Below, one piece after another: positions 30,125 through 36,576 of a DNA stretch of 64,000 nt. The DNA lies in assembly GCF_021534965.1 (NCBI RefSeq), contig NZ_CP091037.1, positions 3,727,501 through 3,791,500 on the forward strand, given 5' to 3'. Source of the DNA: Muricauda sp. SCSIO 65647. GTDB lineage: Bacteria > Bacteroidota > Bacteroidia > Flavobacteriales > Flavobacteriaceae. Position 1 is the first letter of the stretch; every line of letters begins with the position of its first letter. Under the pieces are notes generated by a model. It made no database searches and had not been told where the DNA came from. It worked only from the letters and a program-made list of their open reading frames with translations. Position numbers and translations under genes: made by a program.

Positions 30125-31666
30125 ATGCGTAATTTTGTGCTTATACTTGTTGCCGCCATACTTTGCATAAGTGCCGGATCTTGTCGAAAAGATTTTGATT
30201 TCGAACCTAGTGAAGGTAATCTCGAATTTTCAAAAGACACCGTTTTTTTAGATACCATTTTCACCAACATCGGCAGTGCCACCTATACGCTCAAAGTGTA
30301 TAACCGTTCAAACAAAGACGTACAGTTGCCCTTTGTTGGCCTTGAGGGTGGTGAAGAAAGTGATTACCGTATAAATGTCGATGGCCTATCGGGCAAGACC
30401 TTTAGCGATATTCCCCTATTGGCAAAAGACAGTTTGTTCGTGTTCATCGAGACAACATTTGATATCTCAAGTGTGGGCGAAAACGAATTTTTATATACAG
30501 ATGCCCTACTTTTTGGGGCCGGTGATCAACAACAACGTGTTGAACTGGTCACCTTGGTCAGGGATGCCATATTTCTGTACCCCAGAACACTTTCTGATGG
30601 CACCAAAGAAACACTGTTGCTCGGTCTTGATGAGGAAGGAGATGAAATACGTATTGAAGGATTTTTTCTTGAAGATGATGAGCTGCGCTTCACTGACGAA
30701 AAACCATATGTCATTTATGGATATGCGGCCGTTGACGAAGGAAATACATTGACAGTCGATGCCGGCGCACGTGTCCATTTTCACCAAAATTCGGGCATTC
30801 TGGTCACTTCGGGCGCTTCAATACAAATCAACGGCGCGCTGAGTGAAGATGGTGAACTACTCGAAAACGAGGTGATTTTTGAGGGAGATCGATTAGAACC
30901 TGGCTACGCCGACCTATCTGGCCAATGGGGCACTATTTGGTTGGCCGAAGGAAGCATTTCAAATCACATCGAATATTTGACCTTAAAAAATGCCACGGTC
31001 GGTTTGTTGGTAGAGGGTAATGCCGAATCAAGTGAAGCAAAGCTCATTCTAAAAAGCACACAGATTTTCAATAGTTCAAGTATAAACCTGTGGGCACGTA
31101 ACTCATATATCAATGCCGAGAATTTAGTACTTGGCAATGCCGGACAGAGCGCACTTTATTGCAGCCTTGGCGGAAGATATGATTTTGCGCATGCGACCAT
31201 TGCCAATTATTGGAATACGGGTTTTAGAAATAGCCCTGCCGTGTTGATCGATAATTTTGAAGAAACCCCGACACAAACGTTAGGTGGTGACTTGAATTCG
31301 ACAAAATTCTCAAACTGTATCATAGATGGCAACAGGGATATTGAGCTGTTATTGAACAGAGACGATAGATATGGTTTTGAATTTGCCTTCGAAAACTGCT
31401 TGATCAAGTTCAATGATGTGAATGAAATATATACGAACAACCCCTTGTTCAATTTTGAAGACACGTCTAACTATCGAGACATCCTCTTAAATGGCAATAC
31501 CCTTTTTGTGGGCCCCAATGAAAATGATTTTCGTATCACCGTAGATTCTGGGGCCATCGATTTTGGTGACGCCAATACGGCACTGCTGGTCCCCTTTGAC
31601 ATCATGGGCAATGATCGCACACCTACCCCCGATGCAGGAGCCTACGAATATGTTCTCGGGCAATAG
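30125..31666 (+). CDS. Right-handed beta-helix lipoprotein
   Basis: A 513-residue protein with lipobox SAGSC (Cys20). After a beta-sandwich-like N-terminal domain (about 30-140, with FTNIGSATYTLKVYNRSNKD) it turns into repeated short strands with Asn ladders, such as VDAGARVHFHQNSGILVTSG, IEYLTLKNATVGLLVEGNAE and KFSNCIIDGNRDIELLLNRD. These are typical of parallel beta-helix surface proteins. The end GNDRTPTPDAGAYEYV is a hallmark of this Bacteroidota lipoprotein group. It is probably on the cell surface; binding or catalytic role unknown. Confidence 0.85.
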   Translation: MRNFVLILVAAILCISAGSCRKDFDFEPSEGNLEFSKDTVFLDTIFTNIGSATYTLKVYNRSNKDVQLPFVGLEGGEESDYRINVDGLSGKTFSDIPLLAKDSLFVFIETTFDISSVGENEFLYTDALLFGAGDQQQRVELVTLVRDAIFLYPRTLSDGTKETLLLGLDEEGDEIRIEGFFLEDDELRFTDEKPYVIYGYAAVDEGNTLTVDAGARVHFHQNSGILVTSGASIQINGALSEDGELLENEVIFEGDRLEPGYADLSGQWGTIWLAEGSISNHIEYLTLKNATVGLLVEGNAESSEAKLILKSTQIFNSSSINLWARNSYINAENLVLGNAGQSALYCSLGGRYDFAHATIANYWNTGFRNSPAVLIDNFEETPTQTLGGDLNSTKFSNCIIDGNRDIELLLNRDDRYGFEFAFENCLIKFNDVNEIYTNNPLFNFEDTSNYRDILLNGNTLFVGPNENDFRITVDSGAIDFGDANTALLVPFDIMGNDRTPTPDAGAYEYVLGQ

Positions 31667-31791: not shown

Positions 31792-32523
31792 ATGGACTAT
31801 ACGTACGCCATAATCGATTCTGACGCTGCCACTCACCTACAACTGCAATTGCAATTGCAAGAATATGGTGATTTCAGCTGTACGGCCACGGCCCAAAATA
31901 TCAATGAAGGCTTGAACGCCATCTTGAAGTTTTTGCCCGATGTGGTAATCGTAAACCTGAGCAATGAAACTACCGATTGTCTGCAGATGGTCGCCGAACT
32001 GCACCAATTTCTGAAAAAGATTCCACTGATGATTGGTTATGCCAAAGACAAAGACCATGCCTATGATGCGCTGAAAAGTGGTTTTTTTGATTATTGGCTG
32101 TTGCCGCATAGCGAATTTGATATACGCAAGACCATTTTTAGAATTCGCAAAGAGGTACCTGCCGATAGCGTACCCACAACCATCTGCCTAAAGTCATATC
32201 GTGATTACCATTATTTGAACACCGATGACATTCTTTATCTCAAGGCAGACAACAATACCACTGATTTTATCATGAGGGATGGTAGCACGGTAAGCGCTTA
32301 TAAGACACTCAAGACCTTCGAAAAAAAGCTACCGACAAACTTTATTCGCGTTCACCAAAGCTACATTTTGAACGGTAAGTATGTGGCGCGTATCAATTAT
32401 GGCAAGTCGATCTGTACGCTGAAGAACGACAAAAGTCAGCTACCTTTTTCTAAGTCGTACCTCGATAAAATCGATGCCTTGAAGAACATGCTCTCCAAAA
32501 ACAGCATCAAGGCATCTGAATAA
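31792..32523 (+). CDS. LytTR-type response regulator with an aspartate-less receiver
   Basis: A 243-residue protein. Residues 1-115 are a receiver-like domain, YAIIDSDAATH to FFDYWLLPHSEFD. The phospho-acceptor Asp is Asn55 (DVVIVNLSN) and the conserved Lys before Pro is Leu104 (WLLPH), so phosphorylation is not expected. Residues about 130-235 form a LytTR DNA-binding domain: LNTDDILYLKADNNTTDFIM, FIRVHQSYILNGKYV and QLPFSKSYLDKI. It stands alone, upstream of a 13-base inverted repeat and a micro-lipoprotein gene. A QLQLQLQ stretch at 17-23 reflects a short CAATTG-type DNA repeat. Confidence 0.88.
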   Translation: MDYTYAIIDSDAATHLQLQLQLQEYGDFSCTATAQNINEGLNAILKFLPDVVIVNLSNETTDCLQMVAELHQFLKKIPLMIGYAKDKDHAYDALKSGFFDYWLLPHSEFDIRKTIFRIRKEVPADSVPTTICLKSYRDYHYLNTDDILYLKADNNTTDFIMRDGSTVSAYKTLKTFEKKLPTNFIRVHQSYILNGKYVARINYGKSICTLKNDKSQLPFSKSYLDKIDALKNMLSKNSIKASE

Positions 32524-32591
32524 TCAAATTCTAGCAAATCGTTAACATTTACTAACAGACCTGGTGTATTTGCTCATACATTCAAATACGG

Positions 32592-32623
32592 TTGGTGTTA
32601 AAACCAAGTAATTTCTTAGTTTG
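32592..32623 (+). promoter_or_regulatory. Possible promoter of the 54-residue lipoprotein gene
   Basis: TTG at 32592-32594, 21 bases, then TTAGTTTG at 32616-32623, one base off TAnnTTTG. The -7-like element lies inside the 13-base inverted repeat. Confidence 0.35.
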
Positions 32624-32636
32624 TAAGAAATTACTT
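32606..32636. repeat. 13-base perfect inverted repeat, candidate operator
   Basis: The left arm aagtaatttctta (32606-32618) and right arm taagaaattactt (32624-32636) are perfect complements around GTTTG. No T-run follows, so it does not look like a terminator. It overlaps the putative -7 element and ends 38 bases before the ATG of the small lipoprotein gene. Confidence 0.65.
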
Positions 32637-32674
32637 AACAATCTAATTTTTAACACTTTAAACGAGACACGAAA

Positions 32675-32839
32675 ATGAGAAAGACACTTGGTATTTTGGC
32701 CCTATTGGTATTTGGGCTGGGGACGATTGCTTGTGAAGCCGAAACCAATTTGGAGGAGACTGAAGCCCTGTTTGAGAATTTAGATGATACGGCCTGCGAT
32801 GGATGTGGAAGTTCCTCTAGTGATAGAGATGGCCAGTAA
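32675..32839 (+). CDS. 54-residue lipoprotein with a C-terminal CxxC (novel small gene)
   Basis: ATG at 32675, TAA at 32837-32839. The peptide has a good lipoprotein signal (MRKTLGILALLVFGLGTIAC, lipobox TIAC, Cys20). An acidic stretch rich in Glu follows, then the tail ACDGCGSSSSDRDGQ with Cys41 and Cys44. The mature lipopeptide would be only 35 residues. Support comes from the signal peptide, a candidate promoter with a 13-base inverted repeat upstream, and a strong terminator 24 bases after the stop. It sits between a LytTR regulator and a two-component system. I recognise no family; it could be a signal, a stress-sensing lipoprotein or a metal or thiol ligand. Confidence 0.7.
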   Translation: MRKTLGILALLVFGLGTIACEAETNLEETEALFENLDDTACDGCGSSSSDRDGQ

Positions 32840-32862
32840 CTGAACAATAATAAATTTCGAAG

Positions 32863-32902
32863 AAAAAGCCCCATGCTGGTTTCAGTATTGGGGCTTTTTT
32901 TT
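32863..32902 (+). terminator. Terminator of the 54-residue lipoprotein gene
   Basis: Stem aaaaagcccca / tggggctttttt around a 14-base loop, ending in eight T. It separates the small gene from the histidine kinase gene. Confidence 0.8.
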
Positions 32903-32929
32903 ATCTTGTAGGTAGTGTTAGCCAGACGA

Positions 32930-35047
32930 ATGAGGGAAATTACTACAAAAACCAACCTTTTCTTTAGTGCCGCCCTAATTCTTTTCATCTGGGGATGTGA
33001 ACAAAAAAAGGATTACGATCCAAAAAATCATAACGTATCAAAAGATAGCGTGGCCCTATGGATAACGGAGGCACGAAATAATGATGCGCTATTGTCAAAT
33101 CAAAAAAAGGGATTGCTCGACAAAGCATTCGAATATGCAGAGGCAAACTATTCTGACAGTGTAAAGACGAGGGCCTATTCAAAAATATCCCTGGCATTTA
33201 AAAGTCTTGGTGATACCTTGCGGTTCAAAAAAATAAATGCCGACCTGATGGTCTTGGCCCGTAAGATTGAAGACTACCAATCGTTGGGTGAGGCCCATTG
33301 GGATTTAGGAGCAATGTATAAGTTAATCAAACCCGACAGTGCCTATTACCACTATAAAGAAGCATACCAGCTTTTTTTGGAAGCGGACCTAGAGGAATCA
33401 GCAGAATACTATCCTGGCTGGATGCTATATGCCATGGCCCAAGTGAAGAATAACAACAAAGATTATATAGGAGCCGAAAAAGATATTGTAAAAGCCATCT
33501 CCTTTTTTAAAGAAAACGAAATTGAAAATAGACTATTTGATGCCTATAATCTCTTGGGGAATATTCAAATAAGACTAAACAGTTTTGATAAATCACTAGA
33601 GTATCATCTTACTGCAAAAGATTATTTAAAAGAAAATGCCACAAATTGGTTTGGCAAATTTATTTTCCACAAAAACAATGTTGCTTTCACCTACCTGCAA
33701 AAGAAAGATTATGAGAGGGCAAAAACGCTCTATGATGAGCTGATCGCTATTGATAGTTTTCAGGCCAAAGAACCAAGGTCATATGCTAGGGCCCTAAGCA
33801 GTCTTGCCTATGCCAAGTTCAAAAATGGTGATAAGAATACCGACAGTATCAAACAGTTGCTTCGCCAATCACATAAAATTTTAGATAGTTTGGGAGACAT
33901 TTATACCAAAGCCCGTAACCATGAGTTCATGGCCGAGGTACTGGCCCATGAAAGAGATACCGCCAAGGCCATACAAGAAGCATTGGCCTCTAAAACAATT
34001 GCCCAAGAGACCAACAATAATGACCGTTTGTTGAGCACTTTTGAGCTATTGACCAAAATCGATGGAAAAAACAGTGCCGCCCATGCCACAGCCTATTTCA
34101 ACCTGAACGAAGAATTGCAGGCCCAAGAGCGGAGCATTCGCGATAAGTTTGCCCGAATACAGATGGAGACCGATGAGGTCATCGAACAGAATGAGGCACT
34201 GTCAAGGCAAAAAAGAATCTGGGTCAGCGTGGCCGTGGGGCTATTGTTACTGGCCATTGCCGTTTATGTGATAATCAACCAAAGGGCAAAAAATCAAAAA
34301 CTGAAGTTTCAACAAAAGCAACAAGAAAACAACCAAGAAATCTACAACCTCATGCTGGCCCAACAAGGCAAGTTTCAAGAAGGTAAACAGTTAGAACAAA
34401 AACGAATATCAGAAGAATTACATGATGGCATATTGGGTCAAATGCTGGGTATACGGCTTATTCTTACTGGCTTGAACGAGCGTGAAGATGAGGCATCGGT
34501 CAACCAAAGGGCCGAGCTTATAGAAAAATTGCGAGAACTTGAAGAAGAGATCAGAACCATTTCGCATGAACTCAATGCCGCTTCCTACCAAAAAATTCAT
34601 AACTTTATATTGGCCATTGATGATTTGGTCAAGTCAATAGGTGAATCTGCAAAAATTAATTGCTCTTTTACCTATGATGATGAAATGGATTGGGACAAGC
34701 TTTCTGGAAATCTCAAGATCAATATGTACCGAATTGTACAAGAATCGTTGCAGAACTGTGTAAAGCACGCGAAATGCGATAATGTCTTGGTCAATTTTGA
34801 AGCACTTGACGACAACCAATTGAAAGTGACGATCAATGATGATGGCAAAGGGTTTGACATCAATAAGGGCAAGAGGGGCATCGGTTTAAAAAATGTGATT
34901 TCCCGTGTTGAAAAAATAAATGGCGTGTTGAGCATTAATAGCAAAATAGGCAAAGGCACATCGGTCACCGTAACCTTTGACAAAATATACAATACCGATA
35001 TGCCCACCGGTGAACTATTGGGATCGACCTTCGCGCAACAAACATAA
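32930..35047 (+). CDS. TPR-containing sensor histidine kinase with lipoprotein-type signal
   Basis: About 705 residues from the ATG at 32930. The N-terminus reads LFFSAALILFIWGCEQ, a lipobox-like end (Cys23), which would tether it outside the membrane. TPR-type helices fill about residues 40-400, for example YHYKEAYQLFLEADLEESAE. One transmembrane helix lies at about 428-447 and a coiled coil after it. A HisKA_3 domain follows (RISEELHDGILGQMLGIRLI, His at about 497), then HATPase_c (IVQESLQNCVKHA; GKGFDINKGKRGIGLKNV). It is the NarX/NreB type and pairs with the regulator starting 13 bases after its stop. Confidence 0.92.
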   Translation: MREITTKTNLFFSAALILFIWGCEQKKDYDPKNHNVSKDSVALWITEARNNDALLSNQKKGLLDKAFEYAEANYSDSVKTRAYSKISLAFKSLGDTLRFKKINADLMVLARKIEDYQSLGEAHWDLGAMYKLIKPDSAYYHYKEAYQLFLEADLEESAEYYPGWMLYAMAQVKNNNKDYIGAEKDIVKAISFFKENEIENRLFDAYNLLGNIQIRLNSFDKSLEYHLTAKDYLKENATNWFGKFIFHKNNVAFTYLQKKDYERAKTLYDELIAIDSFQAKEPRSYARALSSLAYAKFKNGDKNTDSIKQLLRQSHKILDSLGDIYTKARNHEFMAEVLAHERDTAKAIQEALASKTIAQETNNNDRLLSTFELLTKIDGKNSAAHATAYFNLNEELQAQERSIRDKFARIQMETDEVIEQNEALSRQKRIWVSVAVGLLLLAIAVYVIINQRAKNQKLKFQQKQQENNQEIYNLMLAQQGKFQEGKQLEQKRISEELHDGILGQMLGIRLILTGLNEREDEASVNQRAELIEKLRELEEEIRTISHELNAASYQKIHNFILAIDDLVKSIGESAKINCSFTYDDEMDWDKLSGNLKINMYRIVQESLQNCVKHAKCDNVLVNFEALDDNQLKVTINDDGKGFDINKGKRGIGLKNVISRVEKINGVLSINSKIGKGTSVTVTFDKIYNTDMPTGELLGSTFAQQT

Positions 35048-35060
35048 AATGTGATTAGTA

Positions 35061-35729
35061 TTGAAAACACTACGAATATTAGCGATAGACGACCATGAAA
35101 TGACCATGCTTGGTTATAAGTTCATCTTAGAGCGCTTGGTCTTTGATGATACCAACATCATAGTCGATACGGCAAACACCTTTGATACTGGAAAGGCCAG
35201 AATCGAAGAATCGGTGAATTCATTCAAGTATGATATTATATTTTTGGATGTTCAACTGTTTCCACCCGATGAAGACCAGCCCCATAACGGTGAAGACCTA
35301 GGTGTTTTGGCCCGTAAACTAGTGCCCGAGTCAAAGATTGTCTTTATGTCATCGTTCAGTGACAACTATAGGATCAACAGTATATTAAAGTCTGTCGACC
35401 CTGATGGCTATCTTGTAAAGACCGATATTGACCCTAAAACACTTGAAGATGCCATAAAGACCATTATTGATGGTACCCCTTACTACTCTGCAAAGGTATT
35501 GTCGGCCATTCGCAAAAAAATGTCGAACGACATCATTTTAGATGAAAAGGACAAGAAAATATTATACCACCTCTCTATTGGCACCAAAACCAAAGATCTT
35601 GAGAACCATGTCCAATTATCATCCTCTTCCATAGAGAATAGAAAGAGACACCTAAAGTCACTTTTCGGCACTGAAAACAAAAACGACCTTGCTCTTATCT
35701 TAGAAGCCAAAAAGCGAGGATTTATCTAA
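35061..35729 (+). CDS. NarL/FixJ-family response regulator
   Basis: A 222-residue regulator. The receiver has acidic residues in ILAIDDHEMT, phospho-acceptor Asp in YDIIFLDVQLF (about residue 63) and Lys in DGYLVKTDID, so it looks functional. The C-terminal HTH (about 155-222) contains DEKDKKILYHLSIGTKTKDL and SSSSIENRKRHLKSLFG, a GerE-type domain. The start is a TTG at 35061: the only nearby ATG, at 35049, runs straight into TGA. It is cotranscribed with the TPR kinase and is the likely output partner. Confidence 0.9.
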   Translation: MKTLRILAIDDHEMTMLGYKFILERLVFDDTNIIVDTANTFDTGKARIEESVNSFKYDIIFLDVQLFPPDEDQPHNGEDLGVLARKLVPESKIVFMSSFSDNYRINSILKSVDPDGYLVKTDIDPKTLEDAIKTIIDGTPYYSAKVLSAIRKKMSNDIILDEKDKKILYHLSIGTKTKDLENHVQLSSSSIENRKRHLKSLFGTENKNDLALILEAKKRGFI

Positions 35730-35922: not shown

Positions 35923-36576
35923 ATGGGGGGAAGATTATTGCGGAATAAATTTCATGACAAACAAATAACCGGTCTAGAGTGCTTCAGAAAAAAACTGGAA
36001 AGGCATTTCTTTTCAGATGTTTTCGTTCAGCAGATTCTTGACAAAAATGGAGTGCCGAAGATGGTGCTGAATTTTTATGCCAATTATACCCTTGCACACT
36101 GTCTTTATCATTTCAACAATGGAGATTGGGGCAATTTTGACCAAGAACAGTGCAATGTACCTGAACATAAGACAGGACTAGGGAACTTGGTAAGTGAGTT
36201 GCAAGAACAAAATCCGTTCAAGGTAGATATAGCAGAGTTGTCACTACATTTAAAAGACGTTTCGATCGTCATTTCAAAAATACATGAAGATAGCATTACC
36301 AAAGAATTTGGCAACATCATGTCGGCCATAAGTGAAAATTTCGTCTATTTCACCAAAAGCCTTTCTGAAATGCCCTATGAGATTTTTATTCCCATATTCA
36401 CCGAATTTACCTTGGTACCGCCAAACCCAACCGATAGCTTTGACCCATTCAAAAAAGATATTGGGTACTTTGACTATTGGGCACTCTACTTTGACTCAAA
36501 TGAGAACAGCGATGCGTCAATTTATGATTTGAAGAACAAAGAGATTACTTTTGGTGATTTCTTGCTACTGGGCTAA
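35923..36576 (+). CDS. Hypothetical protein downstream of the two-component system
   Basis: A 217-residue soluble protein without signal peptide or transmembrane segment. Readable segments include LARGELY aromatic stretches such as [20 protein letters not shown] and [20 protein letters not shown]. It has no recognisable domain and no repeat. A TTAAC direct repeat lies 134 bases upstream and a small palindrome attcta-att-tagaat at 35862-35876 lies closer. Its TAA overlaps the TAG of convergent glyA in the shared bases ctaa. It may be a lineage-specific gene. Confidence 0.6.

Follow-up and report, generated by a model that had tools for sequence, protein, structure and literature searches.

What does a gene for a 54-residue exported protein do between a regulator gene and a sensor kinase gene? 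The question is raised by a locus of Muricauda sp. SCSIO 65647, within a stretch of 64,000 nucleotides (NZ_CP091037.1, positions 3,727,501 to 3,791,500; hereafter the window) that is part of a complete 3.81 Mb Flavobacteriaceae chromosome, whose closest named relatives are Allomuricauda/Flagellimonas. On one strand of the window lie a LytTR-type regulator gene, the small gene, a gene for a histidine kinase with a tetratricopeptide repeat (TPR) domain and a NarL-type regulator gene (Table 1). An earlier note, made from the sequence, had named these genes together with an inverted repeat and a terminator after the small gene, and all of these features were found. It had interpreted the locus as a ligand-sensor or stress-reporter pair, with the LytTR protein acting on the inverted repeat. 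The idea of a ligand-sensor pair held up: the two genes co-occur, conserved peptide units stand in tandem and the sensor is predicted to fold like Rap and NprR, which together support it strongly. The assignment of the LytTR protein to the inverted repeat did not hold up. We propose that the locus is probably a peptide-signalling cassette, in which an anchored, exported precursor carries a unit that would be bound by the TPR domain of the paired kinase, with output through the NarL-type regulator and control of the precursor by the LytTR protein.

The small gene tracks the kinase gene

The order LytTR gene, small gene, kinase gene and NarL-type regulator gene was kept in seven relatives. Profiles of the three proteins were used to search 299 Flavobacteriaceae genomes, and the loci were then read. 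A precursor-like open reading frame was present on the same strand in the 1 kb upstream of the kinase gene at 102 of 103 kinase loci, compared with 8 of 103 in a reverse-strand control with the same filter. This is the neighbourhood comparison across Flavobacteriaceae that the earlier note had called for, and the orthologues were found together instead of scattered. In 23 kinase loci that have no close LytTR neighbour the precursor was still there (one of them, L164, has a distant LytTR neighbour, with 38% identity), and it was missing in the two loci, G232 and G098, where LytTR and regulator genes are present without the kinase; the small gene therefore tracks the kinase. In an independent set, consisting of the LytTR orthologues of 80 named genomes, the precursor was present in 79, the 80th locus being cut by a contig end. 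Precursor homologues were also found elsewhere in five other genomes, each adjoining another TPR kinase and a regulator. The cassette occurs in dozens of genera; outside the Flavobacteriaceae, a 395-genome draw from the phylum gave no match to the kinase clade at E ≤ 1e-100.

Other arrangements of these genes were observed. The locus L101 (G178) has two TPR kinases of the clade in tandem, with one precursor gene upstream, and orphan precursor genes with no kinase alongside are present at L197:2945-3121 and L204:2964-3119. A second subfamily (L196, L198, L199, L200 and L201) combines a precursor homologue and a TPR kinase with a different type of regulator (MF[KQ]K[IV]L[IV]AED...), and several of these loci are divergent from a gene of 230-270 aa. 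Two paralogues of the kinase in the window's own genome (C1:955836 and C1:2033395) were considered as further cassettes and rejected: they are accompanied by conventional LuxR-type regulators, and a convincing precursor gene was not found upstream of them.

A predicted exported precursor with a C-terminal unit

The precursor encoded in the window has a signal peptide, a lipobox (IAC, with Cys20) and acidic residues after the cysteine. The earlier note's description of a lipoprotein gene with its own terminator was borne out, since signal peptide, lipobox and a terminator-type hairpin with a T run were all seen; a terminator-like hairpin separates the precursor and kinase genes at 67 of 102 loci. 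Precursors are 45-60 residues long and are built from a signal peptide, usually a lipobox cysteine with acidic residues, a short linker and a C-terminal unit (for example ATDGDDVRPDERDNG; the version in the window is ACDGCGSSSSDRDGQ). Among 117 distinct close precursors, 104 have the lipobox cysteine, and in every one of the 104 an acidic residue lies within the next five positions, a combination that fits the signature of surface-exposed lipoproteins in Bacteroidota. The lipobox cysteine is absent from the remaining 13, of which 11 have a CxxC motif in the C-terminal part (CxxC is present in 17 of the 117), suggesting that the ligand may take a disulfide- or metal-bearing form in CxxC precursors of this kind. 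At L092, L097, L258, L259 and L285 the precursor has no lipobox cysteine and its repeated unit carries CDDC. Most kinase loci without a LytTR neighbour (L156-L175) have a non-lipidated precursor with a basic C-terminus of the KKKP..NG type; these precursors are a distinct chemical class with the same precursor-kinase pairing.

Tandem arrays of the C-terminal unit, with up to 10 copies, occur in 17 of the 117 distinct precursors: eight copies of CDDCSHDKDEREA, six of STDGDDVPTDTRDS and ten of STDGDDVQIDRRGS are examples. Four Zobellia species have 1, 5, 7 and 10 copies, and the variant of the unit differs by species. Within arrays (pooled), nonsynonymous differences per site (pN) amounted to 0.014 and synonymous differences per site (pS) to 0.402; the peptide is thus nearly identical from copy to copy while synonymous sites have diverged, and the arrays are under purifying selection. 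Between Zobellia species pN was 0.120. In two of three clusters of close species the N-terminal part had pN/pS ratios of 0.04 and 0.09, and the C-terminal part evolved faster, with ratios of 0.34 and 0.44 that come from a gapless comparison and in which pN is possibly somewhat inflated. Constancy within arrays combined with divergence between species gives the unit the look expected of a species-specific ligand that would be made in several copies.

The kinase carries a predicted extracytoplasmic TPR sensor

The kinase is composed of a lipobox-like N-terminus, a TPR superhelix (about residues 40-400), a transmembrane helix (about residues 430-450) and, after it, HisKA_3/HATPase domains with an intact HD motif. 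The lipobox-like character of the N-terminus, already pointed out in the earlier note, is kept in orthologues, where Cys23 is nearly invariant. With such a signal before it and a transmembrane helix followed by the kinase part after it, the TPR domain is predicted to be extracytoplasmic. AlphaFold modelled the N-terminal 453 residues, from a 50-sequence alignment, as an all-helical TPR superhelix (pLDDT 92.9) that ends in a long helix running through the membrane segment. The PDB structures closest to this model, at Z about 27, were the TPR domains of LGN/Pins, many of them complexed with extended peptide segments. Next came Rap and NprR (Z 22-24) and AimR (Rap-CSF 4gyo, Z 23.8; NprR 5dbk, Z 23.4; AimR 6jg8, Z 19.8), in a tier of Z that also holds other TPR proteins such as O-GlcNAc transferase. 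The best bacterial structural matches of the modelled sensor are the pheromone receptors Rap, NprR and AimR. The sensor has diverged more than the kinase domain (mean 0.65 versus 0.54; closest pair 0.22 versus 0.06).

In the NarL-type regulator the acceptor residue D63 is invariant. Full-length matches to NarL, MctR and VraR were obtained with this protein; Pfam GerE itself gave no scoring match.

Direct repeats with LytTR spacing precede the precursor gene

The product of the LytTR gene has a LytTR domain (Pfam PF04397, 69.4 bits for a cut-off of 22.6, E 3e-19), and this half of the protein matches the AgrA structures 3bs1 and 4xqj; the Pfam match of the receiver part is below threshold. The earlier note had called this regulator aspartate-less, correctly so: because the phospho-acceptor position is occupied by N or H in 8 of 8 orthologues, and because the usual Lys is also absent, the protein is a pseudo-receiver and not a canonical phosphorylated response regulator. 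In L116 (G035), a tandem pair of LytTR genes lies upstream of a single multicopy precursor.

Sites of LytTR proteins consist of 9-bp direct repeats with a 12-bp gap (9 bp-12 bp-9 bp), hence a 21-bp period, upstream of promoters (PMC6193735). Three direct repeats, overlooked in the earlier note, are conserved between the LytTR stop codon and the small gene (32525-32579), with a consensus near CAAATACTCACAA and an exact spacing of 21+21 bp in all 45 orthologous regions tested. The triple-repeat score was 25.1 bits at this spacing, against 7.0-7.4 in shuffles and 7.7-15.9 at other spacings. The pattern used had a single match in the genome, with 0 mismatches; the same pattern read backwards, as a control, gave 12 matches at ≤1 mismatch. 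Given their LytTR-type spacing, the repeats are candidate sites for the LytTR protein. Further downstream, a -7 promoter box (consensus TAnnTTTG; PMC9723704) is found at an offset of +92 from the LytTR stop codon in 86 of the 96 box-bearing orthologous regions, and at the same offset in the window.

The 13-base perfect inverted repeat on which the LytTR protein had been expected to act does exist, and the genome holds no second copy of it. It is lineage-specific and overlaps the -7 box: few close relatives have it, and an arm of at least 9 bp was found in 5 of 114 homologous upstream regions. We therefore rejected it as a conserved LytTR operator; the conserved LytTR-type sites are those of the triple repeat immediately behind the LytTR stop codon. 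The centre of the inverted repeat lies close to the -7 box, and a similar long inverted repeat precedes the precursor gene in L211 and L115.

A proposed mechanism and its alternatives

We propose that the product of the small gene would be exported by the Sec pathway as a precursor, usually lipid-anchored, and that its C-terminal unit (in the window, about ACDGCGSSSSDRDGQ) would be the ligand. This unit may be released or displayed at the surface, might act between cells, and would bind to the TPR superhelix that the adjacent kinase would expose outside the cytoplasm; the kinase would then signal to the NarL-type regulator as the presumed output. The LytTR protein, whose receiver is not phosphorylatable in the usual way, would occupy the three direct repeats, which immediately precede the precursor promoter, and set the transcription of the precursor, presumably by activation. 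The terminator after the precursor gene would allow the precursor to be made in larger amounts than the receptor. A broader proposal, which we consider possible and nearly, though not quite, as likely as its contrary, is that these cassettes make up a family of Flavobacteriaceae peptide pheromones. Lipid-anchored, often multicopy precursors would be sensed by extracytoplasmic TPR histidine kinases, a fold like that of the RRNPP receptors (Rap-Phr, NprR-NprX, PlcR-PapR and AimR arbitrium) would work outside the cytoplasm of Gram-negative cells, and marine flavobacteria would communicate from cell to cell in a species-specific manner.

Several observations weigh against peptide signalling. A dedicated processing protease or exporter gene was not found nearby, which leaves the release of the unit without explanation, and a lipid anchor is predicted for about 89% of the distinct close precursors, which might confine the action of the signal to the producing cell or to cells in contact with it. 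The sensor is matched best by the TPRs of a eukaryotic protein, LGN, and TPR folds are a generic architecture; in addition, RRNPP receptors are cytoplasmic, whereas in this Bacteroidota cassette a histidine kinase would use its TPR domain as a sensor outside the cytoplasm. When peptide and sensor were compared in a partial Mantel test, no co-evolution beyond shared phylogeny emerged. Finally, in the third cluster of close species (3 sequences) pN/pS was not higher in the C-terminal part than in the N-terminal part.

The main rival of the signalling cassette is a cell-autonomous role, in which the small lipoprotein would be an accessory subunit of the kinase, for example one that inhibits it or that senses lipoprotein trafficking (CpxP-like, or a surface-to-periplasm reporter), with no release or exchange of peptide. 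Such a subunit would account for the lipobox and acidic residues of 104 of the 117 precursors, for the strict pairing with the kinase and for the absence of a processing enzyme nearby. However, tightly constrained tandem units and the species-specific divergence of the unit are more easily reconciled with a ligand than with an inhibitor subunit, the lipobox cysteine is lacking in 13 of the 117 precursors, and the precursors are non-lipidated at many of the loci without LytTR. We regard the accessory subunit as unlikely, with a chance that still has to be reckoned with. It is quite improbable that the small protein is instead a surface-exposed acidic or metal-binding lipoprotein, the level or occupancy of which would be the output of an envelope-stress response, the kinase being a mere neighbour in the stress regulon. 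The acidic C-terminal units, the CxxC motif of 17 of the 117 precursors and some likeness to DxD-rich calcium-binding motifs agree with this role, but the C-terminus is basic (KKKP..NG type) at loci without LytTR and these precursors are still paired with the kinase, so that charge or metal binding is not a common property; moreover, the small gene is absent from the two LytTR loci that lack the kinase. The stress reporter suggested in the earlier note is accordingly less likely than a peptide signal.

Bacteriocin loci also contain small exported precursors with hypervariable C-termini beside two-component genes, a resemblance that would suit a small gene for a bacteriocin or a modified peptide, with the adjacent regulators in control of its production. 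It also counts in favour of this explanation that bacteriocins of Streptococcus mutans are controlled by LytTR proteins (PMC6193735). No immunity, exporter or modification gene is conserved in the loci examined, however, most precursors have a lipobox and the pairing with the kinase is strict, which makes a bacteriocin very improbable. The least probable explanation, to which we give almost no credence, is a linkage that is only positional, as the earlier note had cautioned. Close relatives do indeed share synteny over the entire SDR-glyA block, but the cassette persists in more distant genomes without these flanks, and the gene set co-occurs across Flavobacteriaceae. The distant loci without LytTR, the existence of paralogous cassettes and the co-occurrence at 102 of 103 loci refute a positional linkage.

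Comparison with known signalling systems

The cassette would work like RRNPP receptors and like peptide-kinase quorum systems and is a member of neither, because its TPR receptor is not cytoplasmic and its kinase does not sense through a polytopic membrane domain. In RRNPP systems a short peptide is cut from an exported precursor, and the receptors are cytoplasmic phosphatases or DNA-binding proteins of Gram-positive bacteria that need import of the peptide. Here, as in those systems, the gene of a small exported precursor adjoins that of a TPR receptor (102 of 103 loci), and Rap, NprR and AimR can be superposed on the sensor model (Z 20-24), although LGN scores higher (Z 27); the precursor differs in being mostly a lipoprotein. 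With AgrD-AgrC-AgrA, ComX-ComP-ComA, ComC-ComD-ComE and SilCR-SilB-SilA the cassette shares a small precursor gene beside kinase and response regulator genes, a fast-evolving peptide and the involvement of a LytTR regulator. It differs from them by a sensor that is a soluble TPR superhelix instead of a polytopic membrane domain, by the lack of a maturation gene of the AgrB, ComQ or exporter type, and by a cognate regulator of the NarL type, the LytTR protein being a pseudo-receiver without a kinase of its own.

The yeast alpha-factor is a secreted multicopy pheromone precursor with tandem near-identical peptide units. Precursors of this type resemble those described here in being secreted, in their tandem near-identical units and in a copy number that varies between species; here, unlike in yeast, the organism is bacterial, there is no known spacer-processing protease and the unit is kept within a lipoprotein. 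The LytTR Regulatory Systems HdrRM and BrsRM (PMC6193735) likewise have direct repeats with a 21-bp period (9-12-9 bp) just upstream of a promoter. In contrast to these, the present locus has no membrane inhibitor gene, a small precursor gene follows the LytTR gene, and the sites, three repeats instead of two, precede the peptide gene and not the LytTR gene.

A published description of the cassette, sought in open-access full text with respect to TPR kinases, peptide pheromones, LytTR and Bacteroidota, was not found, which agrees with the earlier note's claim that it is undescribed, and there is a substantial chance that it represents a distinct signalling family in Bacteroidota. To our knowledge no peptide quorum-sensing system has been defined in this phylum, and none was present in the open-access literature searched. 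Flavobacteriaceae are major degraders of algal polysaccharides, and fish pathogens are found among them. As the candidate ligand is small and, like its receptor, defined by sequence, the question is directly testable with synthetic peptides, and multicopy arrays with species-specific units constitute a clean natural experiment on the specificity of signal and receptor.

Features of the locus and neighbouring genes

Table 1. Coordinates of the cassette and its control region in the window.
Feature	Position	Strand	Basis
LytTR regulator of 243 aa, whose degenerate receiver has Asn in place of the phospho-Asp; proposed dedicated regulator of the peptide gene	31792..32523	+	Pfam, orthologue alignment, structure matches
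LytTR-type direct repeat 1 (CAAATTCTAGCAA)	32525..32537	+	45/45 orthologous regions, spacing 21+21 bp
LytTR-type direct repeat 2 (CATTTACTAACAG)	32546..32558	+	Comparison of orthologous regions
LytTR-type direct repeat 3 (TATTTGCTCATAC)	32567..32579	+	Comparison of orthologous regions
13-bp perfect inverted repeat, overlapping the -7 box, lineage-specific	32606..32636 (arms 32606-32618 and 32624-32636; 5-base loop 32619-32623)	+	Unique in the 3.81 Mb genome
-7 promoter box (TTAGTTTG), one mismatch to consensus, inside the inverted repeat	32616..32623	+	Offset from LytTR stop
Small secreted lipoprotein of 54 aa, proposed as the precursor of the peptide signal; C-terminal unit ACDGCGSSSSDRDGQ	32675..32839	+	Signal peptide, lipobox, homologues
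Part of the small gene coding for the C-terminal unit (about residues 39-54), the positional homologue of the unit that forms tandem arrays in other species	32789..32836	+	Precursor comparison
Intrinsic terminator-like hairpin and T run between peptide and kinase genes	about 32863..32903	+	Sequence
Sensor histidine kinase, proposed peptide receptor	32930..35047 (best start ATG 32930)	+	Pfam, orthologues, AlphaFold, structure matches
NarL/FixJ-type response regulator, TTG start, C-terminal HTH	35061..35729	+	Pfam, alignment, structure matches

Directly after the NarL-type regulator gene, nearly all close loci have a gene for a conserved, cytoplasmic-looking protein (orf217; 35923-36576 in the window), for which neither a Pfam/NCBIfam match nor a significant PDB fold match was obtained, and which could be a target or a partner of the cassette. 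Upstream of the LytTR gene, 30125-31666 encodes a predicted lipoprotein with a weak choice-of-anchor Q match; this gene is kept in close relatives and not in distant cassettes.

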